From: Quercus robur
Lineage: Eukaryota; Streptophyta; Magnoliopsida; Fagales; Fagaceae
Direction: 5' to 3'
Length of the DNA stretch: 64,000 nucleotides
Assembly: GCF_932294415.1 (NCBI RefSeq)
Contig: NC_065543.1
Location: forward strand, 1,934,976 to 1,998,975
In this document: positions 1,423-48,992 of the stretch, one piece after another
Layout of the letters: every line of letters begins with the position of its first letter
Position numbering within the stretch: the first letter of the stretch is position 1
Translations under genes and position numbers: made by a program
The notes under the pieces: generated by a model
What the model was told of the DNA's origin: nothing
Database searches by the model: none
The model's input: only the letters and a program-made list of their open reading frames with translations

Positions 1423-4400
1423 ATGCTGCTAAAATCTCAAACCCAAATGGTTCTTAATTCAAGAGCTCTTGTTTTGCTCCACATTCTTGTCTGGTCATTG
1501 CCAGATACACTTACCCTGAGTTCTGGTACCCTGAACGATATCTCTTGCTTGAAATCTATTAGAGATTCCTTAGAAGATCCTCTCAATCACATAGCCACTT
1601 CTTGGACCTTCAACAACCTCACAGAAGATTCTATCTGTGGATATGTTGGGGTCAGTTGTTGGTACATATCTGAGAGTAGGGTTCGAGGTGTGCAACTGGC
1701 CAACATGGGGCTCAAGGGCAAGTTCCCTAGGGGCCTTGTGGACTGCAGCGAACTTAGAATCTTAGACCTTTCAGGTAATGTAATTTCAGGATCAATCCCA
1801 CGTGATATCAATGAAATACTGCCGGCCGTAGAAGTGCTCAAACTCTCAAACAATAACTTGTCTGGAGAAATCCCATCGAGTATAGGTAATTGCTCTAATC
1901 TGGAGGTTCTCATACTCGACAACAACAGGCTAATGGGGCAAATACCTCAGCAACTCAACCAGCTCATCCGTCTAGAAATCTTTAGTGTTGCTAATAATTT
2001 GTTGTCAGGGCCAGTGCCAGACTTTGTTAACATCACTACAATCAAGCCTGAGAGCTATGTAAATAATAGTGGACTATGTGGAGGGCCTTTCGAATATTGC
2101 CGTAAAAAGCATAGATGGAGCTTTGAAATTTCTTTCAGGAGTGGGTTTGTAGTTGGTTTTGTGGTTTTTGCCTTTTCATATACAGCTTTTTTTACCTACT
2201 ATTTTAATCTTTGTGTGGGATCAAACAAGAGGAATAAGATAATGCCAACAAATACTACAGAATTGACAGTGACCGGGAAGAACATCGCTGAAAAAGTTGA
2301 TCAAGTTACCCAATTGATGAAGGTACTTTTTCTCACTCTATTAAAAGTGCTAGGGGCAAGTAAATATATAATAAGGGATAGTGCAAAGTCACATGCGATA
2401 TTGATTGTAAAGAAAAATCAGTTTTTTTGAAAAATTAGTTGAAATGATAGTTTCTTACAATGATTCGTGATTGGTGTATTGACTTGTTATGTGTTGTGGG
2501 TCAAATAACTGTTATATATACATGGCATTTAGTCTATTCCACGAATTTGTTGATATATATATATTTTTTTGAGAAGCAAAAAAAAAAAAAAAAAAAAAAA
2601 AATTATTGTTAGTGATAAATGAGATTATTTCTTTGAAGTAAAATTTCAAATGCTTAAAAATATTACTAAAGCAAAAATTAACTCATGACGCGTGAATAGA
2701 ACTAAAAATACATTACAAATATGTTCAATTTAAATTTAATATAAATGATAGGTGTGTTGTAAAATTGTATAGTATAAATGATAAAGTAGCTTTTGAGATG
2801 ATAAAATTGATTTTTTTTAGATACTGGATGTGAATGCTCTAAGTTACTTTGATCCTTCCATTGTTCATATTCAAATTTCCTAAACAGTGTGTATATCAAT
2901 TTGTGATATGGGTTTATACATATCATTTTAGTGCTAAAGTTAGTCTCCCCAAGGGAAGATTTCTATCTCTATCCCAGTTGGAACTTAGAACATTCCTTGC
3001 GTTTGCATGATCATTACTTTTTTGTCATTGATTTTTCAAAGATGTTGATTTTCTCTCAAAATACACAAGCGATGGAAAAGATGGTCTTATATTTAGTGCA
3101 GTGTCATCAATGAGCTGAAGCGTCTTGCTGTGTTTATAATGTTCTAAGAACACTTTGAAAACAGAAATCAGAAAATATTCTTCCAAATGATTTTATTCTT
3201 TTTCCAAAACCCAAAATACATTATTCACTTAAAATTTAGTTGATGAGCAATTTTAAATTCACTCCATAAAGTTTAAAGCGAATGCTTGTAGTATGTAAAA
3301 CCTTAAAATATTACTTTTAGTCCTTACTTAACTTAAAGTCACTGTTTTTAGTCTTTGTGGAGTGATGATGTGTTATTTTTTAGTTTAATCGTATTATTTA
3401 AGGGACTAGAAGTGATAACTTTAAACTTGGACTACTAAAATTGTTCATGTTCAAAATTTTAGAGACCAACAATGTATTTAAGTTATTTATTTATTTATAA
3501 TGCCAGTTTACAAAACAAGAAACTAATTTAGAGTATAGTTCAATAGAAGCCCAATTTCTGTTACTCTCACAATTTGTCAGTCGTAGGCAAGCAATATTGC
3601 CACCTAAAAAACAATATAAATGCTGTTAAATACTGTTGTAATTTTTTATTAGCACTAACCCAGAATGGCAAATGATTATTGATCCACAGATTTCTCAATT
3701 GGGCAGAAAAGTTACTAGAGTGAGCTTTGCAGAACTTAAAGAAGCAACAGGCAATTTCAACAGACACAATTAGATTGGGTTGGGAAAGATTGGGATAATG
3801 TACAAGGCAGTGCTTCCAAATGGTTATCCCCTTGCAGTTAAGAGGCTATACGAGTCTCAACCTTTTGAGAAACAATTCAAATCTGAGTTATCAGCTCTGG
3901 CTAGATTGAGACACAATAACATAATTCCCCTCTTGGGTTACTGTAGAGAAAGGAAGGAAATGCTTCTAGTATACCAATATATATCGAATGGTAACCTTTA
4001 TGGCTGGCTACATGCTGGGAAAAACAAAGATACGATCTTGGATTGGCCTTTGAGGATTAAAATCGCCATTGGGTTAGCGAGAGGCCTAGCATGCCTTCAC
4101 CATAATTGTCATTTCTCGGTAGTCCATCTCAGCTTGAGTTCGAATGCTATCTTACTTGATCAGAATTTTGAGGCCAAGATATCAAATTTTGGAGAGGCAA
4201 TAATATTGAAACCTGGAGGGCTAATGTTTGTGAAGTCAAGTGATGTCTATGATTTTGATGGCAGTGGGGTTAGGGAGTTGGATTTTTACAAAAAGGATGT
4301 CTATGATTTTGGCATTTTGCTTCTTGAGCTAATTACAGGAAAGCCACCCATTCAAATAAATAATTATTCGAACCGTTTGGATGGGTGTTACGTTGATTGG

Positions 4401-4682
4401 ATTACTTGTCTTTTGACTAGCCCTTCTTTAATGTGCAATTTCATTGATAAATCTCTTATTGGGTCAGGTTTTGATAATGAAATCTTTCAGTTGCTCAGAA
4501 TTGCCAGTGCCTGCATTAAGCCCTTATCTTGTCAAAGGCCCACAACCCTTGAATTGTACCATGCGATAAGCATCCTTGGAGAGAATTCTGGCCTCATAAA
4601 TAATGATACTGAGATATTGAGACAATCTGAAATTGCTACTACCAGTACTTCAAATGAAATTGTTGATGTTGAAAGTACATAG
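1423..4682 (+). CDS. RLK-1: LRR receptor-like pseudokinase (BIR1/At5g48380-like), one in-frame stop
   Basis: Two exons: 1423-2322 and 3690-4682, intron phase 0, donor gtactt, acceptor ccacag. I chose the ATG at 1423 because RLK-5 has the same start context; an ATG at 1447 is possible. Exon 1 gives a signal peptide (residues about 9-33), LRRNT with a cysteine pair, about five LRRs of the SGxIP type and a transmembrane segment near 241-265. Exon 2 gives a kinase fold: glycine loop GLGKIG, the beta3 lysine in LAVKRL, but HLS instead of HRD, NFG instead of DFG, and no APE segment before KKDVYDFG. By BIR1 analogy it would sit in the plasma membrane and bind partner receptors rather than phosphorylate. 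A TAG at 3771-3773 (residue 328) interrupts an otherwise open 630-codon frame, just before the glycine loop. Compared with RLK-5, about 12 juxtamembrane codons next to the donor are missing. The 1.37-kb intron carries an A run at 2578-2602 and a lone gatgtgaatgctctaag Harbinger-MITE-like end near 2828. It may be a young pseudogene. Confidence 0.75.
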
Positions 4683-12640: not shown

Positions 12641-12642
12641 AA

Positions 12643-15020: not shown

Positions 15021-15417
15021 CTGAGAATTGTTTATTGATTTCGTTTTCAATGAGCTGAAGGGGCATTAACTTCGACTTACATACTCTGGACTTTCTTTCG
15101 ACTGCCAGTCTGCCATTCTTTACGGTTGCATGACTTGGTAAAATAGAATTAGCAATTTCTTTTTGTTTTTTTGATTTCTGACTCAGCAATTACGTTTTGT
15201 ACGTTCCTCCAAAAAACTTGGCTCAATCCTCCAAAAAGAAAATGCTCAAATTTCAGCCATTTCTTCCAAACCACTTTTTCGAGAATTAAAGAATTAACGC
15301 GTGTGATCAATTTTCCAGCTAGAAATTTCTTGAAAATGATTGTTTTGATATTTCTATATAACTAGTTAAGTACAATGTTTCTACCTCTGATTATTCTTAC
15401 AAAGCACTCACAAGCAA
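14894..15417 (+). other. RLK-2 upstream region with an orphan RLK 5' fragment
   Basis: At 14894-14935 the text resembles the signal-peptide coding part of this receptor family (ttcacacatttgcttggtca). The block to about 15150 also matches the upstream region of RLK-7 (57493-57522, then 59225-59300 and 61615-61660 across insertions), so RLK-2 and RLK-7 descend from one duplicated unit. An (AT)n microsatellite lies at 14983-15018. Confidence 0.5.
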
Positions 15418-16207
15418 ATGGCTCATAGTGCCAAACTCGTCAATCGTCCTAGCTCTACTTCACATATTTGCTTGGTCATTTCTGGACATTATTGACATTA
15501 TTGAAATGTTACGTACAATGTATAATTGTTGTATAATAATTTGATTAAAGAGTCACTAGAAGACCCTTACAACTACATCAAGTATTCATGGAATTTCAGC
15601 AACAACATAGAAGGTTTCATCTGTAAATTTGTTGGGCTCAAATGCTGGCACTCTGATGAAAGCAGGGTACTAAATATCCGGCTGTTGAACATGGGGCTAA
15701 GGGGCTAAAGGGCCACTTTCCTCCGGAAATCAGGAATTGCACATCATTGACGGGTCTGGACTTGTCAGGTAATGACCTTACAGGCACCATACCATCTGAC
15801 TTATCTATGCTGCTCAGGTACGTGAACACCCTTGATCTCTCATCCAACAATTTTGCTGGTGAAATCCCTAAGAGCATAGTGAATTGCACCTATCTAAGTG
15901 TCCTTCGACTTGACAACAACCAGCTAACGGGTTCTATCCCTCCAGAAATTAACCAGCTTCGGAGACTTTGCACGTTTGGTGTTGCTAACAATCTCTTATC
16001 AAGGCCGGTGCCTGTGTTTTCCGATCTTACCATTCCTGTAGAGAGTGATGCAATTATTCTGGGACATTGTACCATTCCTGCAGAGAGCTATGCAAATAAT
16101 TTGGGACTTTGTGGGGCTCTGTTGGAACCTTGCAAACCTTCTCCTAAGAAGTTTATTGTTCTATGCAAAGAAGGATTTGTGGTAGGCTGGATTGTCGCTA
16201 TGGTCAT

Positions 16208-17086: not shown

Positions 17087-18720
17087 ATCATAGTGGTAGT
17101 TGTTATGTTTTGTAATAAACCAATATTGCTTGTGAAGAAGGCAATAACCAAGAACAACAATAAATTAATGAAAGCAGGAACCCGATGGTGTTCCATTGAT
17201 GAAAGAAGCAATAACGTGATGGTAATCTCTTAGAGCCTATTTGTTTCCATCTTCATGTTTCTTTTTGTCCAATACATGATTGCAATAGACTATTTTCAAA
17301 AGAAAAAATGACAAATATATTTGTCTCCTAATTACAATCCAAAACAATGTTAAAAATATCAAAGAAGCCCTCTTACACCGCCACATAGAAAGCTTTACTT
17401 GCATATTCGTGATCCTTTCTATTCAACATTAAATGATCATCCTTACTCTCTACTTCTTGCCCTTTGAAAAATTATGTTATGAGAGCCCCTCTCACATTTG
17501 GGTGCCATAGATATTTAGGGAAGAACCAAATACGAGAAGGGTGCCTCATGAGATGAGATTTTTTACTTGTTTAATACTTGCAAATAATGCTCCTCTCACA
17601 TGGGCATAGACCCTGCAAGAATGGGACGCATCTAAATGTGAGAGGTGTATTGTATGCAACTGTTATACAATATACCACCTCCATGAAATGATCTCCATTG
17701 AGATACTTTCTCCTCAGTTTGTCACGAGTAGACAGTTTGTACAACCACTTAAAAGAAACATCTGTGTCAAATTTTTTTATATAAATTTTGATTAGCACTA
17801 ATGCAAAAATGGCAAATGATTTAAGTCACAGATGGAGAGAATGGTTACTAGAATGAGCTTTATAGAAATTAGTGAGGCGACTGGCAATTTCAACACAAAC
17901 AATGTCATTGGAATGGGGAAGATTGGGATGATGTACAAGGCAGTGCTTCCAAATTGATGGCCTCTTGCAGTTAAGAGGTTAAATAATTGTCAATCTTATG
18001 AAACACAATTTCTATCTGAGCTATCAGTTATGGGTATACTGAGACACGATAACTTCGTTCCCCTCTTGGGATATTGCAGTGAATAGAACGAAAAACTTCT
18101 AGTGTACAAATATATATTGCATGGCAACCTTTATGATTGGCTACATGTAGGAGAAGGAGAACTCAAGGACAAGATCTTGGAATGGTCTTTGAGGACTAAA
18201 ATTGCAATTGGGATAGCAAGAGGCCTAGCATGGCTTCACCATAAGTATGATTTCTGAGTGGTCCATCTCAACTTAGGTTCAAACTCTATAAACTCTATCT
18301 TATTAGATATGAATTTTGAGCCCAAGATATCAAAATTTGGTGGGGCAAAAATATCAAGTTCTGGAGGGTTAATGTTCATGAATTCAACTGTCATTGACAC
18401 AAGTAATAGCTCTTTTGTAGACAGTGGGGTAAGGGAGTTGGGTTTTGTTAAAAAAGATGTCTATGACTTTGGAATTCTACTTCTTGAGCTAATTACAAGA
18501 AAGGAACCCATTGAAATTAACAGTTTTTCATATGGTTTTAATGGGAGTTTTTTGATTGGATAACTTACCTTTTGAGCAATTCATCTGGTCTTTATAGTGT
18601 TATTGATAATTCTTTGATTGGAAGAGGATTTGATGATGAAATCTTTGAGTTACTTAGAATTGCATATACCTGTCTTAACCCCTTCCCTAGTCAAAGGCCA
18701 ACAATGCTTGAATTGTACAA

Positions 18721-18918
18721 TACAATAAGTACTTTCGGGGAGAGAGATGGCATCACAAATGACTCTGAGATATTGATGCAACCTGAAATTGCTATTGCAA
18801 GTAGCTCAATTGAAACCAATACAATAAGTACTTTTGGGGAGCGATACGGCATCACAAATGACTATGAGATATTGATGCAATCTGAAATTGCTATTGCAAG
18901 CAGCTTAAATGAAATTGT
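18721..18918 (+). repeat. In-frame 99-bp tandem duplication in RLK-2 tail
   Basis: Units start at 18721 and 18820 (tacaataagtact), period 99 bases = 33 codons. Each unit codes a TISTFGER..GITND.EILMQ.EIAIASS segment, the C-terminal tail of the kinase domain. Other copies in the array have one unit. Confidence 0.85.
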
Positions 18919-20892: not shown

Positions 20893-20968
20893 TTAAGAGT
20901 AACTGTGTCTAAGTGTTCGTATGTGTCTAGAAAATTGGTGTGTGTCTTGTAAAAGCCAAGAATGTGTT

Positions 20969-21146
20969 TGGTATCAAATGATACCATGTCAACGGTATCA
21001 AAATTCAATAAATGTGAGACATATCAGCAAAAATAACTAGCCCACTAACAATTAAAAGACATGTATTAGTGGGTAGTTATTTTTTCGCATATATCTCTTG
21101 TTTATTGAATTTTGATATAGATGACATAGTATCATTTGATACAAAA
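20969..21146. mobile_element. Foldback MITE, near-perfect hairpin of about 80-bp arms
   Basis: Left arm 20969-21050 (tggtatcaaatgatacc... to actagcccacta) and right arm 21065-21146 (tagtgggtagttat... to tatcatttgatacaaaata) are inverted copies with few mismatches and a loop of about 15 bases. A transcript would fold into a long, miRNA-precursor-like stem. Confidence 0.75.
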
Positions 21147-28380: not shown

Positions 28381-28392
28381 TCTACAATTTCA

Positions 28393-29745
28393 TGAAAACG
28401 AAGCATATTTAGTAATGTAATGAAAATAATTTAATCAAGGAATTCTATCTGGATTTTCCTTGGTGAGGAAAAGATCCAAATTGAATAGATTATGGTAAAG
28501 TGGTCCATCCGAATTCTATCTGGATTTTCCTTGGTGAGGAAAAAGCCCCACATTGAAGGGTGCATTGTTTTTATTATTTTTTTTAAAGCACTGCTTTTTT
28601 TTTTCTTTGCTTGGCCATGTTCATGGGTAATTATTGAGTACTTTTAGAATACCATAAATGTGTATTCTTCCCTTTCACATAAGAGTCGGTCTCACTAATT
28701 AAATATATGGTGGGACTCAAAATTCATATGGGAGGAGGGAGTACGTGTCTATAGTATGAGAAATTATACTATGTTTCGGTAATACCAACTTAGCATCTGT
28801 TTTGGTATTTCCTACCCAATAAATGAGTGACATTTGTTTCAAAAAACGACATCAGACTACTCCAATAAATTAATCACAATCTTCTATACTATCGCGAAGA
28901 TAAATTAATTATTTATTGAAGTAGTCTAATGTGGTTTTTTGAAACAAGTGTCACTCATTTATTGGGTAGGAAATACCAAAACAGATGCTGAGTTGGTATT
29001 ACCGAAATATGGTATACTTTCTCATACTATAGATGCGTACTCCCTCCTCCCACATGAATTTTGAGTCCCACCATATATTTAATTAGTGAGACCCACTCTT
29101 ATGTGAAAGGGAAGAGTACACATGTTTGGTATTTTGGGAGTACTCAATAATTACCCATGAACATGTCCAAGCAAAGAAAAAAACAAGGAGTGCTTTTTTG
29201 AAACAGGTGTCACTCATTTATTGGGTAGGAAATATCAAAACAGATGTCACTCTGATAAGGGCCTCAATTTTCAACATTATTTTCATTACGTGGTTTTTTG
29301 AAACAGGTGTCACTCATTTATTGGGTAGGAAATACCAAAACAGATGCTAAGTTGGTATTACCGAAACATGATATACTTTCTTGTACTATAGATGTGTAAT
29401 CCCTCTTCCCCTATGAATTTTGAATCTAACCATATATTTAATTAGTGAAATCCACTCTTATGTGAAAGGGAAGAGTACACATTTATGGTATTCTGGGAGT
29501 ATTCAATAATTACCCATGAACATGGCCAAGCAAAGAAAAAAAACAAGGAGTGCTTTAAAAAAAAATAATAACAACAATGCACCCTTCAATGTAAGGCTTT
29601 TTCCTCACCAAGGAAAATCCAAATAAAATTCGGATGGACCACTTTACCATAATCTATTCAATTTGGATCTTTTCCTCACCAAGGAAAATCCAGATAGAAT
29701 TCCTTGATTAAATTATTTTCATTACATTACTAAATATGCTTCGTT
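28393..29745. repeat. Long inverted duplication with about 480-bp left arm
   Basis: Left arm 28393-28872, loop about 28873-28908, right arm 28909-29745. The right arm repeats the left in reverse, through the aaggaaaatccagatagaattcc blocks to tgcttcgttttcat at the outer end. It is longer because a segment was duplicated inside it (direct copies of ttttttgaaac.ggtgtcactc at 28934, 29199, 29294 and 29871). The paralogous block at 37190-37350 has only the left-arm orientation, so the inversion arose after the segmental duplication. Confidence 0.85.
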
Positions 29746-30451
29746 TTCATGATATTACTAAATATGCTTCATGCGAGTTGTCATTGCAAAATGAAATCAT
29801 TAAATTAAACAATTCATCATACAAACACTCTGATAAGGACTTCAATTTTCAACATTATTTTCATTACGTGGTTTTTTGAAATAGGTGTCACTCATTTATT
29901 GGATAGGAAATACCAAAACAAATGCTGAGTTGGTATTGCCGAAACATGGTATGCTTTCTCTTATAGTACTCTGGAGTATTTTATAATTTTCCGTGTATTA
30001 AAAGAAAAAAAGTTAAGACTCTTAAAAGCACCTTTTAACACCCAAGAGTACAGAACCAGACGGGCCCTGCATCATCATAAATAGATAAATTGGAAAGGAA
30101 AAAGAACAAAAGAAATCAATTGTGACATCCTCCACCAAATTGTGAGTCCTTTCTCATTCCTCTGTGCGCTAATACAAGTTTCATTTCCTATGCTCTAGAG
30201 TTTCTACCAGAGTTGACAGTGCATGACTTGGAAATTAGACCCATCAACCACGTTATTTGTATACGGCAATTATTACTTACCTATTGTTGATAGATCATAT
30301 AGACTTTGGAAAATTGTATTTTTCAAATAGTATTTGATGGAGGTAGTATTTTCCAATTTAAAATTTTCTTAAAGATGAATTTGTTTCCATTTTTGAATTC
30401 TCTATTTAACCTACATGGCTTTCTACATCTAAGTTTTCATGACAAACACAT
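29746..30451 (+). other. RLK-3 upstream region
   Basis: 29746-29830 is the reverse of 37081-37190. A fourth direct copy of the ggtgtcactcattta block lies near 29880. From about 30160 the sequence aligns with the RLK-4 promoter (37510-37793; shared catgact.ggaaattagaccc). No other gene is seen. Confidence 0.6.
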
Positions 30452-30822
30452 ATGCTAATGGCTCATAGTGTGAGACTCGTCATAGCTCTACTTCACATAT
30501 TTGCATTGTCATTTCTAGACATTCTTAAAATAAGCAATGGCTTAGAGAGTGACATCTACTGCTTGAGGTCCATTAGAGATTCACTAGAAGACCCCCACAA
30601 CTACTTGAAAAATTCATGGAACTTCAACAACAATACCGCAGGTTTCATCTGTGAATTTGGTGGGGTTGAATGCTGGCACCCAAATGCTAATGAGGTCTTA
30701 AATATCCAACTCAGTCACATGATGCTCAAGGGCCAATTCCCTCGTGACATTAAGAATTGCACACATTTAATAGGGTTAGACCTCTCTGCTAATGAACTTT
30801 CAGGACCACTCCCATTTGTCTC

Positions 30823-31873
30823 TGTAAAGTTGTGATTTACAACTATGTTTTATGTTGGTTTTATTCCATGACAAAAAGTGTTGTAATTGCTTTAATTTAG
30901 TTCCTTGTATTTTGTGGGATTTTATTGTATTGGTTTTAGTATTAAGTTGGTGAAGACTCAAGCTTAATTGAAGAATCGGTGTATTTCGCGACTAGCTCGC
31001 GAGAAGGGCATGTGAGAAGCACATGACTGGAAGCTGAAGAGTCGTGCCAGGCTGTCAGTTTCACGAGTATCTTGCAGGTAAGGCCTTCTTGCGAGGTAGT
31101 CGTGAAACATTCTGCCTGGAGGATTTTTAAGTGTGACTTTCTTACCCTTCACCCATACTATATATACCATCATTACCCTTAGAAATTGTAAGAATGCCAT
31201 TCAGAGAGAAAAACCCTAGATAGGTTTTCTACAACATACACACCCATCTTTTTGAGAGAGAGCTACTCATCTTTAGTGAGAAATCATTCTAGCCTCTTCT
31301 CCTTCCCTCTCCTATTGTCATACCTTGAGAGGAGATTTGTACCCAAACACTTACCACACCTTTTTAGAGTGTTCAATGAGGTTTTGGTGTTGCTGGGAAG
31401 CATTGGAAGAAGCCAGGCTTTGGCAGATGCAATCGAGCGTATTGCAAGATCTGGAGAGCTAGACAAGACATGGTTCCGAGAAGTCTTGTTGGAGTAGGAG
31501 CTTGGAGGGCTTAGGTGAATCGGGTAGATTAGGTTTAGAGGGTCTCTTACTAACCCATGTATCCCAACTGATTGTCTAGTGGATCGATTATCGCTTGGAG
31601 GGTGACGGAAAGGATTTACGCCGAGTACTTCTGTTTCCTCTTCGATAACACATCGGCATGTTATCTTGTGTTTGCATCCTTCTTCCCTACTCTTTTAGCT
31701 TTCATATTTTTGCTATGTTATATTGTATATGGCTTAGAGTAGTTTGTTTGTTTATCTGCTCGCATTTACTGTATTCTGCACTTAGTATAAGTTAGAGTAA
31801 AATCTATCAAGCCATAATTTTTATTTAGGGGGTCTAAATAGCTTGTGTGTTTTAACACATTTTCGAGCATTCA
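30823..31873 (+). mobile_element. Solo LTR fossil (family alpha), 1051 bp
   Basis: TG..CA ends (TGTAAAGTTG .. GAGCATTCA) are flanked by a perfect 5-bp duplication, GTCTC (30818-30822 and 31874-31878). The RLK-4 paralogue shows the uninterrupted site. Two more copies, in reverse orientation, lie at 35650-36691 and 42183-43235. No internal region is present. The superfamily is not determinable from the LTR. It is younger than the RLK-3/RLK-4 duplication. Confidence 0.9.
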
Positions 31874-32649
31874 GTCTCAAAACTCAATAACTCCGAAAAC
31901 AAATTTTCTGGGGAAATCCCAAAGAGCTTTGTCAATTTTAGTTTTCTAAATGTTCTTAAACTTAACCATAATCGACTAAATCGTCAAATCCCTTCCCAAA
32001 TAAGCGGCCTCAATCGTTCGAAATGGTTCTAACAATTAGTTGTCATGATTGGTCCCTGTCTTTAACAAAACCGCTACTAAGTTTACAGCTAAGAGCTTTG
32101 CTAACAACAAGGAACTTTGTGGAGGGCCATTAGAACCCTGTCCAAAACGAATATGGAAATTCTTTTCATTCAAAAATGGGTTTCTAGTTGGTTATGTGCT
32201 TTTTGTATTCCACACTTAGTATAAGTTATAGTAAAATCTATCAAGCCGTAATTTTTCTTTAGGGGGTCTAAGCAGCTCGTGTGTTGTAACACATTTTCGA
32301 GCATTCAGTCTCAAAACTCAATAACTCCATAAACAAATTTTTTGGGGAAATCCCAAAGAGCTTTGTCAATTGTAGTTTTCTAAACGTTCTTAAACTTGAC
32401 CATAATCAACTAACTAGTCAAATCTCTCCCCAAATAAGCGACCTCAATCGTTCGAAGTTCTTCAATGTTGCTAACAATCAGTTGTCATGATTGTTCCCTG
32501 TCTTTAACAAAACCACTACTAAGTTTATAGCTAAGATCTTTGCTAACAAAAAGGAACTTTGCGTAGGGCCAATGGAACCCTATCCAAAACGAATATGGAA
32601 ATTCTTTTCATTCAAAAATGGGTTTCTAGTTGGTTATGTGTTTTTTGTA
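31771..32649 (+). repeat. 434-bp tandem duplication spanning an LTR edge and RLK-3 LRRs
   Basis: Unit 1 is 31771-32204 and unit 2 is 32205 to about 32649. Each unit contains the last 100 or so bases of the alpha LTR plus the RLK-3 sequence from the last LRRs to the membrane segment. The junction has a short ttttgtattc homology. Because the unit includes the LTR edge, the duplication happened after that insertion. Confidence 0.9.
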
Positions 32650-32704
32650 GGTTCAATAATGGTTTTTTTTTTTTTTTTTTTTTTGGGTCCAATTATATGG
32701 CTTT

Positions 32705-34069: not shown

Positions 34070-35190
34070 CCTTTCCAATGTCACAATTCTCAACTCTACT
34101 ATGCTCTGGTGATGATTGCATCTTAGTTGGACCTGGTACCATTAATATGTAGATTGAGAATGTAGCATGTGGACCAAGCCATGGAATCAGGTAAAGAAAT
34201 TTTATTTATTTTTTGATCTATTGAATATTATGTAACTATAACAACAATATTATAGTGTGATGCCAAATTGGTCATGGGTGCAATTTGTTATTGTAGCATT
34301 GGGAGTTTAGGCAAAAACCAGCAAGAGACTAGTGTCCAAAACATGACAATTACAATAGTAAATTTTTCCGGTACTCAGAATTGGGTGAGGATTAAATCTT
34401 GGCCAAGGCCTAGCAATGGGTTTGCTAGGAGCATTATTTTCCAACATGTCAATATGGTGAATGTCCAAAATCCCATTATAATTGATCAAAATTATTGCCC
34501 CTCTAAAGATTGCCCTCATTAGGTACGATATTTTGAAGGATATTTATGCTAATGTTGTTTAAATTTTAAACTATAATCTGTTTGCTTATGAAAAATCCTA
34601 AACATGTTCAAGAAGATTACACAATATAGATTCTTATAAATTTTAGTTTCCATGGCCCCTTACTATAATCATAGAAACTACTCATAAGTAATACCCATTA
34701 TATAGCTAGGCCCATTATTATGGCATCCTAAACTTTTAGTCTACATAAGTTTTTGGCGCAAATTAAACCCCTTCTTTGCAACAAGAAAATCTTTAATTTT
34801 TTTAGTTTTTGCTTAATAATACATCTTTCAAAGTCAAAATAATAAAAGAAAACATAAATTAAAAACGGTGATGTTAGTTTTTTTAATTTTATAGGTTAGA
34901 GTTTGCATACTACTACCATTAATAAGTAGAAAATTGATGTGTGCAAATTTGTTTTCCCATTTTAATAGGCTTCTGGTGTAAAAATTAGTAATGTGACATA
35001 CCAAGACATTCATGGAAGTTCAGCGACAGGGGTGGCTGTGAATTTTAATTGTAGTCTGGGAAATCCATGCTCTGCAATAACAATGAAAAACATAATGCTC
35101 ACTTACAAGAATCAAGTAGCCAAAGCTTCATGTAATTATGCATCTGTCACATCTTCTGGTATTGTCCAGCCTGCAATCAATTGCTTATAG
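34070..35190 (+). pseudogene. Polygalacturonase (GH28) 3' half, copy II
   Basis: Three exons: about 34070-34191 (5' incomplete), 34297-34522 and 34969-35190, with GT/AG introns. The encoded pieces carry the GH28 signatures SGDDC (motif II, catalytic acid region), PSHGIS (motif III, normally GHGIS) and VRIKSW (motif IV), then DQNYC and the C-terminal cysteines, with a stop at the usual place. Motif I (NTD) and everything before it are absent. A TAG interrupts the first exon after GPGTINM and another closes the second exon at its donor. The family cleaves pectin in the cell wall; this copy is not functional. It was carried here with the RLK-4 promoter; copy I lies at 27618-27755. Confidence 0.75.
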
Positions 35191-35267
35191 AGCAAGGGAG
35201 TTAATTTTGTATTGGAGGCTGTTTCAATTTGGTAAAAGAAATGAAATTTTTTGATATTGGTTAATAC

Positions 35268-35459
35268 CATGGTTTTAAAAACCGAACCGAGAGTTGAACA
35301 ATTTTTTTCAAAATTCCCGGTTCAACCCAATTTTGACTGTTTTTTTTTGGTTTTTGACCGGTTTTCCCCGATTTTAGGGGTTTTTATCGGACCAGGCAGG
35401 CTCCTAGTTCCCAGTTGAACCAGTCAAACCGGCCAGTCCGGTCCGTTTTTAAAACATTA
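35268..35459. mobile_element. hAT-type MITE, 192 bp
   Basis: The ends catggttttaaaaaccg and cggtccgtttttaaaacatta are inverted. A perfect 8-bp duplication, GTTAATAC (35260-35267 and 35460-35467), flanks it. The same target sequence is single and uninterrupted at 27823-27830 in the paralogous copy. Confidence 0.9.
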
Positions 35460-35649
35460 GTTAATACTGATATACTATTTCAAAGTTAGCACTATATATA
35501 TGTGTGTGTGTGCGTGTGTGTGTGTACACATATTTATATGTTTATAAACATATAATTTAAATCTACAATTTTATAAGACCAAATATTCGCATAAATACAT
35601 TAATGCAATGTATTAGCTCAAATAACATTTTTTTTTTAATTATTTTATT

Positions 35650-36691
35650 TGAAAGTTCACTTGGTGTATAAAACACTAGTGAATGTTTAGACCCCCAATT
35701 TCAAAAATACTAACACAAGCTTATACTTAAACAATAGATGTGTGGAATGATAAGTACAAGCAATACCCAAATAAATAAACAACTCTAAACCACAATTAAT
35801 TACAACACAGCAACAATTAAAAGGCAAGAGTAAGGATTAGAAAGATGCAAATACAAAGATAACATCGGCACGTGTTATTGAAGAGGAAATCGAAGAACTT
35901 GGCAAAAAACCTTTCCGCCACCCTCCAAGTGGTAAAATGATCCACTAAAGAGTAAAGTTGGGATACAAGAATAACAATAGACCCTCCAAGCCTAATTTAC
36001 CCAATGCACCTAAGCCCTCCAACCTTCTTGCTCCAACAAAGTTAAGCCTGTGTCTTCTTTAGCTTTCCAGATCCTGCAATAAGCCCATTGCATCAACCAA
36101 ATGAATTGGTCCTCTCTGAACTGCTTCCCAAGTAGCAAATAATCTTCTCACTGATATGGGTATGATGAGGTAAGGATTTGGCTAAGTATCCTCTCAAGGG
36201 TATGTCAATGGAGAGGGTGAGAGTAGAGGAATTTAGAGAGTCAAATGTCTAAGATTGTGGATGAGTCAATCTTGTTTTTCTCTAGGGTTTCTCTCTTAAA
36301 ATTCTCTCTAGAAGCTCTCTACATTTCATGGGTATAAGGGTATATATAGTAGGGTATGTGATGGAATGTGAAAAAAAAACATTTTTTTGCATAACAAGGG
36401 GTTCTAGCAACTCACCTACGCGACTGGGACGAGTCGCGAGTTCCAATTGCGAAATAACTGACTGGTCAGATTGTCCTTTTTTGTCTTGTAGTGTTCCAAC
36501 TGTCGTGACCCTTCAACTCCTGTGTGCTTCACATGTGTGGCATTTTGGCGAGTCAACAATTGCGAGCCATTTGTGAGATCCAGTCACGAGAATGCTCTTG
36601 AATGCACACACACTTGAATTCTTCACACTCTTTAACACACACCCTTACATGATTCCCACCTAAATACAAGATATCTAATTGCTGAATTACA
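35650..36691 (-). mobile_element. Solo LTR fossil (family alpha), 1042 bp
   Basis: Reverse orientation relative to 30823-31873. A perfect 5-bp duplication, TTATT (35645-35649 and 36692-36696), flanks it. The empty site is visible near 28009-28014 in the paralogous block. It contains the gtgttattgaagaggaaatcg block common to all three copies. Confidence 0.9.
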
Positions 36692-36696
36692 TTATT

Positions 36697-37793
36697 GTTG
36701 CAGCTAAAACATCTATATCAATTGAAACACTCATCAAAACTCCGGTACATGCAGGTATAACCTAATATTTTATCCAATACATTTTAAAAAAGTATCTGTA
36801 TCGGTTTAACAGTGAGTATGATGTATACCTCTGGTACTACTATCAGTATGATATGTTATAAAGGGGAGGGGAATACAAAATCCGTATTTATAAAGGATAA
36901 AAAATGAATATACATTCTTGTCGTTTCAATCCTACGGTCAAAAAAGTATACTAGTTATTTTTTGAAGTATATTAATATTATTGTAGTAGGTCATTGGATG
37001 ATAAGCTGATTGCTCAAGCCTGTGGCAGTGCTAGTCCATTGGGCGTTCTTGGAGCTGCTTGACCTTGCAATTAGGATATAAGGTTGAAAATTGAAGCCTT
37101 TATCAGGGCGTTTGTATGACGAATTGTTTAATTTAATGATTTCATTTTGCAATGACAACTCGCATGAAGCATATTGAGTAATATCATCAAAACGAAGCAT
37201 ATTCAGTAATGTAATGAAAATAATTTAATCAAGGAATTCTATCTGGATTTTCCTTTGTGAGGAAAAAGCCCCACAACTCCCCCACATTGAAGGGTGCATT
37301 GTTATTATTTTTTTTTAAAGCACTGCTTGTTTCTTTTCTTTGCTTGGCCATGTCCATATGTGATGAAATGTGTGTATTAGGGTGATTTGTGTATGAGTGA
37401 GTGAGTCTCTCTCTTTACTGATTTGTATTAAAAGAGAAAAGTTAAGACTCTTAATAGCACCTTTTAACACCCAAGTGTAAAGAACCAGACGGGCTCTGTG
37501 CATTAATACAATTATTGGACAGGATAATACAAGTTTCGTTTCCTATGCTCTGGAGTTTCTACCAAAGTTGACGGTGCATGACTCGGAAATTAGACCCATC
37601 AACCACGTTATTTGTACACAGTAATTATTACTTACCTATTGTTGATAGATAGTATAGACTTTGGAAAATTGTATTTTTCAAATAGTATTCGATGGAGGTA
37701 GTATTTTCCAATTAAAAATTTCTTTAAAGATGAATTTGTTTCCATTTTTGAATTATCTGTTTAACCTACATGGCTTTCTACATCTAAGTTTTC
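36697..37793 (+). other. RLK-4 upstream region
   Basis: 36697-37040 continues the duplication. 37041-37200 is present in reverse at 29746-29830 and is deleted from the left arm of the RLK-3 inverted repeat. 37200-37370 matches that left arm. 37500-37793 is the promoter region shared with RLK-3. No additional gene is seen. Confidence 0.6.
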
Positions 37794-38274
37794 ATGACAA
37801 ACACTCATATGCTAATGGCTCATAGTGTGAGACTCGTCATAGCTCTACTTCACATATGTGCATTGTCATTTCTAAACATTCTTGAAATAAGCAATGGCTC
37901 AGAGAGTGACATCTACTGCTTGAGGTCCATTAAAGATTCAGTAGAAGGCCCCCGTAACTACTTGAAAAATTCGTGGAACATTAACAACAATACCGTAGGC
38001 TTCATCTGTGAATTTGTTGGGGTTGAATGCTGGCCCCCAGATGCTAATGAGGTCTTAAATTTCCAACTCAGTCACATGATGCTCTGGGGTCAATTCCCTC
38101 GTGACATTGAGAATTGCACACATTTAACAGGATTAGACCTCTCTGCTAATGAACTTTCAGGACCACTCCCATTTGACATAGGAGACTTGATCCCATTTGT
38201 CTCAAAACTCAACATCTCCGGAGACAAATTTTTTGGGGAAATCCCAAAGAGCTTTGTCAATTGCAATTTTCTAA

Positions 38275-38381
38275 TGGTTCGTTTGGATTGAAGGAGAGGG
38301 AGGCAAAATTATCTAATTTTGACCAACTCTACTCTACTCCCCTCCACTCCTCCTCCTTCCCCCCTCCATCCAAACAGGCCA
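38275..38381. mobile_element. 107-bp MITE inserted in an RLK-4 LRR exon
   Basis: The ends TGGTTCGTTTGGATTGA and TCCATCCAAACAGGCCA are inverted. A TAA duplication (38272-38274 and 38382-38384) flanks it, and RLK-3 has the intact text ttttctaaatgttc at the same place. It has the same TIR family as 13765-13905. Confidence 0.9.
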
Positions 38382-39597
38382 TAAATGTTCTCAAAGTTGA
38401 CTAGAACCAACTAACTGGTCAAATCCCTTCCCAAATAAGTGACCTCGATCGTTCGAAGTTCTTCAATGTTTCTAACAATCAGTTGTAAGGATTGGTCCCT
38501 GTCTTTAGCAAAACCACTACTAAATTTACAGCTGAGAGCTTTGCTAACAACAAGGAACTTTGTGGAGGGCCATTGGAACCCTGTCCAAAATGAATATGGA
38601 AATTCTTTTCATTTGAAAATGGGTTTCTAGTTGGTTATGTGTTTTCTGCAGGTTCAGTAATGGCTTTTTTTCTATCCAATTATATGGCTTTCATGATTAA
38701 GAAGAATAGGATTGAGAAGATGGCACTGTCCAAGAGGAGTAGAACTAATAAAGAAGTTGATCAAGTTAACTACTTGCCAACTAAAGGGCTCCTACAAGAA
38801 GGGAGGAAAACGGTACTTCCTCTCAATCGATTAGAATTAGGAAAATTCTCTTTATTTATTTATTAATTATTTTTTTAATTCAATAGTTCAAACGACCAAA
38901 AGATTTGAACTCTAATTTTCCTAATAAAGGAGAGCATGCTATGCCATTAAAACTTCTTTTAAGTTTTTGGTTTGGAATTTTTGGGGGGGTGGGGGGACCC
39001 TATTTTTTTTTCCTTAAATCATAAAACTGCGTGAAATTTTGAGTGTAACTTCCATGCTCTTGTGCTATTGTTATGTCTTTTATATATATATTATATATAT
39101 AATATATATATATATATATTGAATGAATAAATCAAACCATCATCGGTACCTAATCAAGTTTCAAAAGACAAAATTGAAGTGAAAATTTGTAAAACATTTT
39201 GGCGCATATGAAACAACCATTTTTACAGTGACCTTATTGTCAATTCTGCTAAAACGTGTCCAATACTACTGTGACATTGATAAGTCATTAGAAATTTCTG
39301 TGGATGTAGAATTCAGATGCTGGTCCAGCCAGTTTTCATTTCTTAATTTTTTCTCTATTGACTGAACTGAAACGAGTCTCCAACTCTCCATAGGAATTTT
39401 GATTTGTCAAAAAAGACTCTTAATCAATCATGTCATTGACAAAAAAGATATCCTAGTTCAATAGGAATTGTGATTTGTGAGAGGTGGGGTTCAAGAACTA
39501 GGCAGCAATTAATAGCTAAGGATTTCTGGCTAAATGCTGGGAGGAGTGTCACAGTCTCAGTCTCACATGCAAATACCGCTTTCATCAAATTAAATAT

Positions 39598-40877: not shown

Positions 40878-40914
<37 letters not shown>

Positions 40915-41177: not shown

Positions 41178-41206
<29 letters not shown>

Positions 41207-42182
41207 ATATATATAAATTGTTAATTATGTAACAAGTAATCCATTGTCAAAATGGTAATTGAAACAACCATCAATATAATGCAATTATACAGGCAATTAC
41301 AAGAAACATCGTGTTCAATTTTATTGAAATATCTGGTTAGTAATAACGCAAAATAGCAAATAATTTGATTCACAGATTTATAAGTTGGAGGGAATGGTTT
41401 CTAGAATGAACTTTATAGAATTCAGTGAGGCAACTAGCAATTTTAGCACAAACAATGCCATTGGATTAGGAAAGATAGGGATGATGTACAAGGCAGTGCT
41501 TCCAAATGGTTCACCCCTTGCAGTTAAGAGGTTATATGGTTGTCAATTGTTTGAGAAACAATTCATTTCAGAGCTATTGGCTCTTGGGACATTGAAACAC
41601 AATAACTTAGTTCCCATCTTGGGATTCTACAGAGAAAGGAAGGAGAAACTTCTAGTGTACAAATATATATCGAATAGTAATCTTTATTATTGGCTACGTG
41701 CAAGGGAGAGCATGGATAAGATCTTGGAATGGCCTCTGAGGAATAAAATTGCCATTGGGATAGCAAGAGGCTTAGCATGCCTTCACCATAAATGCAATTT
41801 CTGAGTAGTTTTTCTTAACTAGAATTCAAACTCTATCTTACTCAATATGAATTTTGAGCCAAAGATATCAAATTTTGGAGGGGCCAAAATTTTGAGTTAT
41901 GGAGGGCTAATGTTCATGGATTCAAATGACATTGATTCGAGAAATAGCTCTTTTGTAGACAGTGGGGTTTGGGAGTCGGGCTTTGTTAAAAATGATGTCT
42001 ATGACTATGGAGTTCTACTTCTTGAGCTAATTATAGGGAAGGAATCCGTTCATATCAATAATTATCCAAACAATTTGAATGAGAGTTTAGTTGACTGGAT
42101 TACTCATCTTTTGACAAGTTCTTCTGAAGACTACTATGTCATTGATAAATCTTTGATTGGTCGAGAATTTGATGGTGAAATC

Positions 42183-43235
42183 TGAAAGCTCAAAATTGTG
42201 TGAAAACACAAGAGCTTGTTTAGACCCCAATTTAAAAAAAAAAAAAAAAATAGATAGATTGTAATTACTCTAACTTATCTAAGTGCGGAAACAAGAGTAA
42301 ATGAAGAGAAATCAACTGAAACTACTCTAGTGCATAAATATGAACAACAAACAATAAAAGTAAAGCATAAAAGTAAGGGAAGAGAAATGCAAACACAAGA
42401 TAACACGGCAATGTGTTATCGAAGAGGAAATCGAAGAACTTGGCGAAAAACCTCTCCGCCGGCCTCCAAGTGGTAAATCGATCTACTAGGCAACAAATTG
42501 GGATACATGAATAGCAAGAGACCCTCCAAGCCTAATCTATCCAATGTACCTAAGCCTTCCAAGCTTCTACTCCAACAAGGCTTCTCAAAACCGTGTCTTG
42601 TCTAACTTTCAGGATCCCGCAATACACCCGATTGCATCTGCCAAGCCTTATCGGCTTCTTTTGGCAAATCCCCAAAGCTTCCCAAGCTCCAAAACACTCT
42701 TTCCACTCTGAATAGGTGTGGGTTGTGTTTGGGTACAAATCTCCTCTCAAGGTATAACAATGGGAGAGAGAAGGAAAAGAGACTAGAATGATTTCTCACT
42801 GAGGATGAGTAGCTCTCTCTCTCTAAAAGATGGGTGTGTATGTTGTAGAAAACCTATCTAGAGTTTTTCTCTCTGAATGGCCTGCTTACAATTTATGGGT
42901 AATGAGGGTATATATAGTATGGGTGAAGGGTAAGAAAGTCACACTTAAAAATCCTTCAGGCAGAATGTTTCGTGACTACCTCGCAGGAAGGCCTTACCCG
43001 CAAGACACTCTTTAGCCTGGCACAACTCTTCAGCTTTCAATCATGTGCTTCTCACATGGCTACTTCATGAGTTAGCTTCTCGCGAGCTTCTCATGAAATC
43101 CACCTAATCTTCAATTAAGTTTGAGTCTTCACCAACTTAATACTAAACCCAATACAATAAAATCCCACAAAATACAAGGAACAAAATTAAAGCAAATGCA
43201 ACACTTTTTGTCATGGAATAAATGACAACTTTACA
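42183..43235 (-). mobile_element. Solo LTR fossil (family alpha), 1053 bp, in RLK-4 kinase exon
   Basis: A perfect 5-bp duplication, AAATC (42178-42182 and 43236-43240), flanks TGAAAGCTC..CTTTACA. It is in reverse orientation relative to 30823-31873 and closely similar to it. It splits the C-lobe coding region, which resumes directly after the second AAATC. Confidence 0.9.
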
Positions 43236-43372
43236 AAATCTTTTAGTTCTTTATAATTGCATGTACTTGTCTTTAAGTCGTTTTCTGATCAACGGCTAAC
43301 AATGCTTGAATTGTACAATACAATAAGTACTTTCTAGATGAGATATGGAATCACAAATGACTCTGAGCTATT

Positions 43373-43857: not shown

Positions 43858-43924
43858 AGTAAATTTGAAATTGCTATTGCACGTACGTTAAATGAAATTG
43901 TTGAGGACATTACATAGATCATTT

Positions 43925-44400: not shown

Positions 44401-44479
44401 TTAAATAATTGTACTCATCCAATAAAATAAAATAAAAAACTGCAATACTTATATGTATTTGCTTAGTATTAGTCAAAAC

Positions 44480-44699
44480 TAATATAATTGGCCGAGGATT
44501 TGATGGTGAAATCTTTCAATTTCTTAGAATTGCATGTACCTGTCTTTAGCCCCTTCCCAGGTCAAAGGCCAACAATGCTTGAATTATATAATACAATTAG
44601 TAGTTTGGGAGAGAGATATGGCGTCATAAATGACACTGAGATGTTGAGGCAATCTGAAATTGCTACTCCAAGTATCTCAAATGACATTGTTGAGGTATA
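44480..44699 (+). pseudogene. Orphan C-terminal kinase tail (RLK-4b)
   Basis: It encodes, across two frames, GRGFDGEIFQFLRIACTCL and then QRPTMLELYNTISSLGERYG..DIVEV, the last helices and tail of the family. It starts just after the ggtcca repeat, with nothing of the same copy before it. Its 3' flank (44700-45680) is paralogous to that of RLK-6 (50942-51037, then 53408-55600). It is therefore the end of a separate, deleted gene copy rather than part of RLK-4. Confidence 0.7.
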
Positions 44700-44939
44700 A
44701 ATTACATAGACCAACTTAAGTATGAGATACAAAGTGTAACTATTGCCTTGAGAAAGTTATGTAACGTATCTGCAGCGGTCCGGACGTTGTTAATTTGGGC
44801 TACGTTTGCTTGTTGTGATCTCTTTCTGTCATTTGTCTTAAAGGTAATTCAAGTGCTGGATGCATATCAAGTCACATAGTATCTACTCTCCTTGTGCTCT
44901 TTTTGCCTCAGTAAAAAGGAAAGAAAATGGTTGTATTGA

Positions 44940-44984
<45 letters not shown>

Positions 44985-46760: not shown

Positions 46761-46979
46761 GCTAAGATTGAGAGGACTCTTTCAAACTAAACGGATCGTT
46801 TGATTCGTTGAGAGCTGATTACCCACACTTTAATTCCTGTTATCATCCAAATGAGTACGTTGTTTTTTGGATTGATGCTTAATGCTTCTACAACCAAAAG
46901 ATGTTACAATTTAATTTCTTTTTTGGTATAATTATTATTCCATCTAATTCCTTTCATCTTATTTCTTCGTGTCAATACT

Positions 46980-48992
46980 CATGCTGCTAAACTATCAATC
47001 GCAAATGGTTTTAGTTTTACTCTCCATTCTTGTCTGATCAGATTGATATCTCTTGGGACTTGGAAGACCCACTCAATTTCTTAACCTCTTCTTGGACTCT
47101 CGGCTACTGGAATCCTTAAGCAACTCACTCAGTTCATTTGGCTAAGAATTCGAATCTTTACTTCTTTAGTGTTCGACTTTGTCATTATGTCTGTGCCTGA
47201 GAGCGATGTAAATAAAAGTGGACTTTGTGGAGGGCCATCGGATTCATGCAAAAATCATAGATGGGCTTTCGAAGTTTCTTTCAAAAGTGGGTTTCTAGTT
47301 GGTTTTGTGGTTTTTGTTATATCATATACAGTTTTTTTTACGCACTATTTTAATCTTTGGGTGGGATCAAAGAAGAGAAGTAAGAAGATGCGAACAAGCA
47401 CAACAGTGTTGACAGCGAGCAGGAAGAAGAAGGGTAAAGAAATTGATCAAGTTACCCAATTGCCAATCCTTGGCTTCGATCAAGAAAAAAACGGAGAGGT
47501 ACTTTTTCTCATTACTAAAATTTTTTCTCCTACATTTTCTACTTACCATGTTTTCATTTTACTTTTCTTATAGAATAACTGAAGTTTAAATTAGAAAAAT
47601 GAAGGAAACCCATACGTATTAAGTTGAAAATGTAGGAGAAAATTTAAAAAAAAAAAAAAAAAAAAACTATTAATTCATTATTCAAAAGAAAGAAATATGA
47701 TAATTTAGAATATAATATATTTTTGGTTCTAAATTTCTAACACTACTTTAGAGTTTAGACCATTGTATATGGTATTAATATAATATATATAGCTAAAAGA
47801 ATCTACTCACTCATTTTTTATTCAGACACTCCAAAGACGAATTTCAGGCTTCACCACTGCGTATATATATATATATATATGAACTCTATATTGAGTACGA
47901 AGAACACTAAAAATAAGAAAATAAATTTTACACCCTTATGATGTCATGCATCCCTTACTAGTGATGAGTAAAAAGATCTTGACAGATTATTTTTATCCAC
48001 AGATTTTCAAGTTGGAGAGAATGGTTACCAAAATGAGCCTTACAGAACTTCACGAGGCAACTGGCAATTTTAACACAAGCAATATCATTGGATTGGGAAA
48101 GTTCGGAATGATGTACAAGGGAATGCTTCCAAATGGTCGGCCCCATGCGATTAAGAGGTTACATGATTCCCAATCTTTTGAGAGACAATTTGTCTCTGAG
48201 CTTTTGGCTCTAGGTATATTGAAACACAATAACATAGTTCCCCTATTAGGATACTGTAGAGAAAGGAAGGAAAAGCTTTTGGTGTATAGATATATATCGA
48301 ATGGTAACCTTTATGATTGGCTACATGCAGCGAAACGTAGGACTAAGATCTTGGAATGGCCTTTGAGGATTAAAATTGCCATTGGAATAGCAAGAGGCCT
48401 AGCATGGCTTCACCATGATTGCAATTTCCGTGTGGTCCATCTCAACTTGAGTTCAAACTCTATCTTACTTGATCATAATTTTGAGCCTAAAATATCGAAT
48501 TTTGGTGAGTCAATAATATCGAATTTTGGAGGGGAAATGTTCAAGAACCTAAGAGGCAATAGCATTTTTATAGGTAGTGATGTTTGGGAGTTGGGTTATG
48601 TAAAAAAGGATGTCTATGACTTTGGAATTTTGCTTCTGGAGCTAATTATAGGGAAGGAATCCATTGAAATTAATAATTTTGCCAACAATTCCAATGGGAG
48701 TTTGGTTGACTGGATTGCTCATCTTTTCACTAGCTCTTCTAATCTCTACAATGTGATTGATGAATCTTTGATTGGCCGAGGATTTGAAGATGAAATCTTT
48801 GAGTTACTTAGAATTGCATATACTTGTCTTAATCTCTTTCCTAGTCAAAGGCCAACAATGCTTGAACTATACCATACAATTCATATTTTTGGGGAGAGAG
48901 ATCGCCTCACAAGTAACTTTGAGATATTGAGGCAGTCTAAAATTGCCACTGCAAGTACCTCTGGTGAAATCGTAGAGGTTGAAATTACATAG
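46980..48992 (+). CDS. RLK-5: membrane-anchored pseudokinase lacking the LRR ectodomain
   Basis: The ancestral start (ATG 46980) reads a signal peptide that hits a stop after 19 codons, and the LRRNT and LRRs are almost wholly deleted. From ATG 47187 everything is open: exon 1 47187-47498 (post-LRR cysteine stretch GLCGGPSDSC, transmembrane segment, basic juxtamembrane KKRSKKMR), intron phase 0 (gtactt..ccacag), exon 2 48003-48992, 433 residues in total. The kinase part has GLGKFG, LAIKRL-like HAIKRL with the beta3 lysine, HLNLSSNSILL in place of HRD, ISNFGES in place of DFG, and YVKKDVYDFG with the APE/P+1 segment missing. It should be catalytically dead but folded. There is no frame break in about 430 codons while all neighbours are broken, which suggests constraint or a recent origin. 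Without a signal peptide, membrane insertion would rely on the transmembrane helix. The annotated start is uncertain. Confidence 0.7.

Follow-up and report, generated by a model that had tools for sequence, protein, structure and literature searches.

The ectodomain of Arabidopsis BIR1 binds BAK1, an interaction for which the ectodomains suffice, and a W71A substitution abolishes binding and phenocopies bir1-1, while flagellin-bound FLS2 displaces BIR1 (PMC5717402). BIR proteins occupy the SERK surface required by the ligand-bound receptor (PMC10317173, extract; this word marks sources available in part). BIR1 falls into subgroup Xa-1 of the leucine-rich repeat (LRR) receptor-like kinases, BIR2, BIR3 and BIR4 into subgroup Xa-2 (PMC5380761, extract). 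Receptors of this family with a dead kinase are a known kind. BIR2 reads DSG, has an occluded ATP site and a blocked glycine loop and does not bind nucleotide (PMC4718504, extract), SlBIR3 is without the Arg and Asp of subdomain VIb (PMC5618615, extract), and about one-fifth of Arabidopsis receptor kinases are predicted to be pseudokinases (PMC4718504, extract). Here we describe a clade of BIR1-derived receptor genes in the oak Quercus robur which has gone further in losing catalysis, and part of which lies in a stretch of 64 kb (hereafter the window, C39:1934976-1998975, C39 being contig NC_065543.1).

The window is a slice of a longer tandem array. Searching RLK-5 exon 2, one of its kinase exons, against the plant's own 786 Mb genome revealed an array of receptor copies that spans C39 ~1.84-2.56 Mb and so extends beyond the window in both directions, along with two dispersed copies at 40.03-40.04 Mb and a pair of single BIR1-like genes (C1:53080547 and C38:47530593) with 44% identity to the query. 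Within the window there are five kinase exons (RLK-1, -2, -4, -5 and -6) and the start of that of RLK-7, together with LRR exons or relics of RLK-1, -2, -3, -4, -5 and -7, all on the + strand (Table 1). A single intron, placed before the kinase, divides each gene into two exons; the kinase and LRR pieces were translated by frameshift-tolerant protein-to-DNA alignment. In total, 42 exon-2 pieces were read, 40 in the array (six of them in the window) and two at 40.03-40.04 Mb, alongside the two BIR1-like and two BIR2-like genes. Copy counts from the genome search are lower bounds, and small C-terminal pieces (two in the window and one at C39:1877595-1877729) stand outside the 42. Copies outside the window are named by their kb position on C39, 2012 for example being the gene at 2012 kb.

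The loss of catalytic motifs is uniform across this family. In the residue numbering that we take over by presumed analogy with PKA, R165 is replaced by Leu in 39/39 readable exon-2 pieces, D184 is lost in 40/40 (35 Asn, two Ser, two Thr and one Lys) and D166 is replaced in 35/39, the other four having Asp. Alignment with the plant's own two BIR1-like genes shows that LGYV[APEYxRTLVATP]KGDVYSFG has become LGYV-KKDVYDFG by an in-frame loss of 12 codons that removes the APE and P+1 region. Every one of the 41 pieces that span the site has this deletion, which therefore is not due to chance. The invariant Glu of a V[RW]E motif was considered as a possible remnant of the APE Glu and rejected; it lies before the deletion, judging from the BIR1-like genes and the 2552 copy (NGEFGD-VELV-KKDVYSFG), so that APE is truly gone. 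The motif calls of an earlier note on this stretch, namely HLN/HLS or worse for HRD, NFG or KFG for DFG and a retained beta3 Lys, are confirmed by the frameshift-aware translation of the five window exons, and its pairing of GYVKKDVYDFG with GYVAPEY...KGDVYSFG is correct. Its statement that all copies keep the glycine loop holds for RLK-1, -2, -4 and -5, but not entirely for RLK-6, in which the first Gly is Glu.

In a nucleotide tree of 44 rows with the BIR2-like genes as outgroup (K2236 and K2051, which have fewer than 180 codons, were dropped), the dead clade is monophyletic (100/100), as is the group that it forms with the two BIR1-like genes (100/100). The latter, which read HRN, DFG and APE, are the sister of the dead clade, and no copy with DFG or APE was found nested inside it in this one genome. 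The proposal of a single, deeply kinase-dead and tandemly expanded clade is thereby upheld. The label BIR1 for the C1 and C38 genes is presumptive, based on the kinase motifs of AtBIR1 and on Thr at position 103 in both, where other BIRs carry Gln (PMC5717402). The affiliation extends to the ectodomain, since array genes with an open exon 1 can be aligned with the BIR1-like genes over their full length, displaying a short ectodomain of five LRRs with BIR-type caps. That of 2176 matches BIR2 (6fg7) and BIR3 (6fg8 and 6g3w) over its whole length in a single stretch; larger LRR receptors outrank them, through several separate matches. The best solved match of the family's kinase is 4l68, the BIR2 pseudokinase (PMC4718504, extract).

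The outgroups allow the losses to be ordered. BIR1-like and BIR2-like genes all read DFG and GYVAPEY, while their catalytic loops are HRN, HRN and HQN, HQN, respectively, D166 thus being Asn in 4/4. K168 and N171 are non-canonical in the clade and already so in these four genes. The ancestor of the clade thus had Asp166, K168 and N171 replaced beforehand, and it was on the stem of the clade that R165 and D184 were replaced and the 12 codons with APE and P+1 were deleted. The idea that HRD, DFG and APE were lost together therefore stands for R165, D184 and APE/P+1, but not for the HRD Asp. Basal copies (2.50-2.56 Mb) and the dispersed pair have all three of these changes (R165 loss, D184 loss and 12-codon deletion), and the kinase dS of the basal copies to the main copies compared is 0.87-1.28; the dead kinase already existed when the basal copies split off. 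Four basal dead copies (C39 2498, 2527, 2552 and 2557 kb) read HLD despite having neither the DFG Asp nor APE, Asp166 probably having been regained in them.

Much of the remaining kinase is kept. K72 is found in 38/39 pieces, E91 in 37/39, the HRD His in 37/39, the DFG Phe in 40/40, the alphaF Asp in 39/41 and the alphaH-I Arg (R280) in 36/37; in the window, the beta3 Lys and alphaC Glu are retained in 5/5 kinase exons. RLK-5 scores above the cut-off against Pfam kinase models. With its sequence conserved to this degree, the remainder of the domain may still adopt a kinase fold despite the missing 12 residues.

One explanation for such a locus would be that its copies are essentially pseudogenes, the ratio of non-synonymous to synonymous substitution rates (dN/dS) staying below 1 as the legacy of formerly useful proteins. 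None of the seven window copies is a complete, intact receptor, only 16 of the 42 exon-2 pieces are open with at least 300 residues, and RLK-3 and RLK-4 are interrupted by the same element, all of which would fit a relic array. However, codon models of the kinase (10 array and two BIR1-like genes, i.e. 12 of 20 genes, over 327 codons and with at most 35 optimiser steps) put dN/dS at 0.37 within the dead clade and 0.35 on its stem, compared with 0.12 for the BIR1-like branches. All the within-clade branches postdate the shared loss, and fixing their dN/dS at 1 costs 105 log units (twice the log-likelihood difference, 2dlnL, of 210). Neutrality is rejected, and purifying selection has acted on the dead kinase since catalysis was lost; the possibility, envisaged in the earlier note, of a ratio near 1 everywhere is not what was found in this genome. 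The five window kinase exons alone give 0.43, again with neutrality rejected (2dlnL 60.5); RLK-5 is lowest at 0.34, and in the window-only tree all the terminal branches are below 1 (likelihood-ratio statistics of 4.2-18.0).

Gene models outside the window point the same way. Among the 16 open copies, an exon 1 was searched for in all but 2431, 2557, 2498 and 40043. Of the 12 covered, six have it open (1836, 1866, 2012, 2041, 2176 and 2483), whereas that of 2090 is broken, RLK-5 and 2396 carry a truncated form and 2513 has no start; none was found within 2.7 kb upstream of 2316 and 2552. Joined at homologous GT-AG sites, complete open reading frames result for 1836 (621 residues), 2012 (626), 2176 (632) and 2483 (625), which shows, at the level of gene models, that four array genes encode complete receptors. 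Two more, 1866 and 2041, probably do so as well, no homologous splice junction having emerged for either. Open kinase exons close to those of RLK-1 and RLK-5 lie at 2022 and 2396 kb, respectively, and 1866 is a relative of RLK-5 (kinase 82%) that retains its LRRs. Between these models and the constraint on the kinase, we regard a mere relic array as improbable. The window copies, which had been noted as receptors, are themselves broken, and it is in the array outside the window that the complete genes lie.

What might such receptors do? Trp71, the residue at which BIR1 contacts BAK1, is present in both BIR1-like genes and in 15 of the 16 array ectodomain pieces covering the site (from 264 kb around the window and three further genes). 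Occupying SERKs requires no catalysis, and together with the retention of Trp71 this favours brakes based on the ectodomain. The proposed scenario is that BIR1-derived LRR receptors devoid of catalysis, evolving in a birth-and-death tandem array, would act like BIR1, BIR2 and BIR3, their ectodomain binding SERK/BAK1 through Trp71 and keeping co-receptors from ligand receptors, while the pseudokinase might offer a non-catalytic surface to partners and the ectodomain might be tuned by diversifying selection. On these analogies we consider it probable, with appreciable room for doubt, that these receptors brake SERK/BAK1 signalling through their ectodomain. The suggestion of 'decoys or signalling brakes' is thus plausible, the brake appearing to be the better of the two because the BAK1-contact Trp is kept.

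Selection on the ectodomain is different from that on the kinase. Exon-1 dN/dS is 0.55 within the clade versus 0.21 on the BIR1-like branches, ectodomains thus evolving faster than the kinase, in which a site test found no diversifying signal (M2a gain 0). In the mature LRRs, M2a was favoured over M1a, with 2dlnL of 16.0 for a set of seven genes, 9.7 for the six whose exon 1 is complete and 26.9 in the group 2176/2483/2513, whose mean dN/dS of 1.47 is not different from 1. These tests, run with our own code on few genes with branch lengths scaled from M0, are suggestive of diversifying selection on the ectodomain. The same pattern would also suit ligand-sensing receptors or co-receptors, in which the ectodomain would recognize non-self or a peptide, an active partner (SERK or SOBIR1) would signal and the pseudokinase would be a scaffold. 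This is the main rival to the brake reading; Trp71 retention would also permit SERK recruitment. There are, however, just five LRRs, in a BIR layout tied to SERK sequestration (PMC5717402; PMC10317173, extract), and the nearest characterized relatives are negative regulators, which leads us to view ligand sensing as possible but rather unlikely. Another role would be that of an effector decoy, with the inert kinase mimicking kinases of the BAK1/BIK1 type and so luring pathogen effectors, much as the pseudokinase ZED1 serves as bait for an injected effector (PMC7158045, extract). The residues of the kinase fold are indeed retained without catalysis, but fast evolution is seen in the ectodomain rather than in the kinase and the APE/P+1 surface for substrate docking is deleted, making this a very unlikely explanation.

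Several observations weigh against the view that these genes are functional ectodomain-based brakes. Kinase dN/dS in the clade is three times the BIR1-like value, indicating relaxed constraint, and in the window-only tree two internal branches are inseparable from dN/dS of 1; the estimate for one of these, a very short branch, is 12. As many as 26 of the 42 exon-2 pieces are broken or partial, and the 2012 gene model requires a 9.3 kb intron containing other, transposon-like reading frames. An AlphaFold model of RLK-5 exon 2, built with alignment rows from the window only, was unusable (mean predicted local distance difference test 34.3, predicted template modelling score 0.23). The BAK1 contact is not uniformly preserved either, since Trp71 is replaced by Leu in 2513, H72 is kept in just 4/16 ectodomain pieces, and T128 and the aromatic residue at 150, retained in some lineages, are lost in RLK-1/1866/2012. 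The diversifying signal is not significant in the LRRs of the latter three (2dlnL 3.2), and exchange between copies and the small number of genes can inflate it elsewhere. Finally, there is disagreement on BIR1 itself, reported as an active kinase (PMC9267208, extract) whereas BIRs are ascribed pseudokinase domains in PMC10317173 (extract).

Kinase and ectodomain exons do not share one history. Among the eight array genes with a usable exon 1 there are three ectodomain groups (1836/2041, 1866/2012/RLK-1 and 2176/2483/2513), and for the 21 between-group pairs dS is 0.75-1.55 in exon 1 versus 0.37-0.63 in exon 2. In 19 of these pairs, exon 1 is the more divergent at synonymous third positions with p<0.05 (p uncorrected, the pairs being non-independent), the exceptions being 1866-2176 (0.19) and RLK-1-2176 (0.08). 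For the two BIR1-like genes, taken as a control, dS is 1.28 and 1.19 (p 0.68), and 13/16 array-to-BIR1-like pairs are without difference. Between groups, synonymous sites thus show less divergence in the kinase exons than in the ectodomain exons attached to them. Within groups the relation is reversed, dS for 2176-2483 and 2176-2513 being 0.14-0.15 in exon 1 versus 0.37 in exon 2 (p 0.006-0.009), with 1866-2012 leaning the same way (p 0.07), which speaks against a simple homogenization of exon 2. Among the window copies, broken ones included, the picture is mixed as well, exon 1 being more diverged for 1-2, 1-4, 1-7, 2-4 and 4-7 and rather less so for 1-5. We infer that kinase and ectodomain exons have been exchanged or homogenized separately, by gene conversion or unequal exchange. 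It follows that whether motif loss came 'before amplifying', as had been proposed, is not readable from the kinase alone; this order holds for the present kinase exons and is no more than possible with respect to the expansion of the ectodomains. A more tentative extension, which we rate as a minority possibility, is that the array constitutes a repertoire of inhibitory receptors in which a single dead kinase exon, its uniformity maintained by conversion, would supply a common non-catalytic tail for many diversifying LRR heads, each restraining a different SERK-dependent complex. Such a repertoire, if real, would be the plant counterpart of the clustered inhibitory receptor families of animals.

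The copies in the window (Table 1) are decaying members of this family. RLK-1 is complete apart from one stop codon, and its exon 1 protein shares 96% identity with that of the open exon at C39:2012739-2013638, 2012 being its closest relative with an open frame. For RLK-5, the remaining start codon would yield a protein of 433 residues with a transmembrane segment, a juxtamembrane region and the pseudokinase. The copy at C39:2396 kb, 99% identical to RLK-5 in its kinase, has the identical exon-1 truncation. RLK-5 thus survives at most as a membrane-anchored pseudokinase without an ectodomain, and because of this absence the ectodomain-based brake route is closed to it. No kinase exon of RLK-3 was found in the window.

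Table 1. Receptor gene pieces in the window (window positions, + strand throughout)
Feature	Positions	Strand	Description
RLK-1 exon 1	1423..2322	+	open; signal peptide, LRRNT cap, 5-LRR ectodomain with BAK1-contact Trp, transmembrane segment, juxtamembrane region
RLK-1 exon 2	3690..4682	+	pseudokinase; HLS, NFG, without APE segment; one TAG (3771-3773) just before the glycine loop
RLK-2 exon 1	15407..16196	+	broken; four frameshifts and one inserted stop in the alignment used
RLK-2 exon 2	17829..18814	+	pseudokinase; HLN, KFG, without APE segment; three stops, one frameshift
RLK-3 exon 1 (LRR) pieces	30443..32682	+	exon-1 pieces only, split by an insertion at ~30860-31874; second half duplicated
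RLK-4 exon 1	37809..38776	+	broken by stops and frameshifts
RLK-4 exon 2	41376..42182	+	pseudokinase; FLN then stop, NFG, without APE segment; two stops; cut by an insertion at ~42182-43222
C-terminal kinase piece, probably RLK-4	43256..43370	+	past the insertion; frameshift and stop
Additional C-terminal kinase piece	44469..44706	+	frameshift and stop
RLK-5 exon 1 relic	46892..47498	+	LRRs deleted; ATG at 47187 opens transmembrane and juxtamembrane frame
RLK-5 exon 2	48003..48992	+	pseudokinase, entirely open
RLK-5 beta3 Lys codon	48153-48155	+	
RLK-5 HLN codons	48438-48446	+	
RLK-5 NFG codons	48498-48506	+	
RLK-5 APE-deletion junction	48602/48603	+	
RLK-6 exon 2	49962..50939	+	only exon 2; catalytic loop deleted; NFG; four frameshifts, two stops
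RLK-7 exon-1 piece	62007..62371	+	broken
RLK-7 exon 2 start	63799..64000	+	runs beyond the window to C39 ~1999762; HLN, NFG, without APE segment; two stops, one frameshift

The kinase exons of RLK-4, -5, -6 and -7 (window ~41300-64000) have close counterparts in the same order ~415 kb away (C39:2390-2417 kb), which suggests a large segmental duplication, and a local duplication, with pieces 88-95% identical, links 27292-30818 to 34552-38175 and takes in exon 1 of RLK-3 and RLK-4 together with the sequence upstream of each. The insertions in RLK-3 exon 1 (30860-31874) and RLK-4 exon 2 (42182-43222) are a ~1 kb element present in opposite orientations (81% identical), to which pieces at 35769-36229 are related. 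A long near-palindrome lies at 28386-29963 and also at 37078-37357, the segment 28585-29196 being 90% identical to its reverse complement in an alignment of 615 columns; with further inverted and direct copies, it resembles a foldback element, and there is a smaller one at 20958-21155. The C-tail of RLK-2 shows a 98-base tandem duplication (91%) at 18718-18914, and the gene at 2041-2045 kb likewise repeats its C-tail. A stop at exon-2 codon 143 is shared by four copies of two lineages (window 18255 and 41802, C39 2030 and 2390 kb); it is TGA in both window copies and may reflect recurrent CGA->TGA change or exchange among broken copies. Fragments of a Copia-like polyprotein, recognized by eye from reading frames, lie on the minus strand between RLK-2 and RLK-3 (23579-25535). 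No relatives were found in public collections of viral contigs and genome contigs.

These genes bear on the question of how much enzymatic capacity a receptor kinase can shed while still acting as a regulator. A natural series exists in one genome, from BIR1-like genes with HRN, DFG and APE to a clade that is without R165, D184 and APE/P+1 and is still under purifying selection. It would allow one to test whether an ectodomain alone is enough for a brake, what the inert domain contributes and why brakes would be multiplied and diversified. The tandem cluster also shows that the kinase and ectodomain exons of one gene can differ in age.

Among known systems, the nearest is BIR1, represented by the C1 and C38 genes, with which the array clade shares a sister-clade relationship, a five-LRR ectodomain, a coding sequence split before the kinase, N166, non-canonical K168 and N171, and Trp71; unlike the array genes, they lie outside the array, keep R165, DFG and APE/P+1 and are more constrained (dN/dS of 0.12 versus 0.37). 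BIR2, BIR3 and BIR4 are likewise receptor pseudokinases with short ectodomains and N166. However, BIR2 keeps its DFG Asp (as DSG) and APE, whereas the array clade keeps the glycine loop and has lost D184 and APE, the further losses in the two lines having taken place on separate branches. ARLPK1 and ARLPK2 (PMC4848489, extract) are alike in layout only, RLK-5 being potentially a membrane-anchored pseudokinase without an ectodomain; they are without the beta3 Lys and have the DFG Asp, RLK-5 being the opposite. The Arabidopsis OAK cluster (PMC3136440, extract) also consists of hypervariable tandem receptor kinases with gene conversion and truncated copies. According to the same extract, its identical tract begins at the gene start and reaches the first kinase bases, whereas in the array it is the kinase exon that is more uniform between ectodomain groups, and OAK has its key catalytic residues (which were mutated), unlike the array clade. 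In oak, the LRR receptor kinase subgroups with the highest expansion rate are XIIa and XIIb (PMC6086335, extract). No description of a kinase-dead BIR1 array appeared among the best matches listed from open PMC text, and what is new here, in comparison with the known dead BIR receptors, is a dead line on the BIR1 side in which the APE/P+1 segment is deleted and which has expanded to at least 42 pieces.

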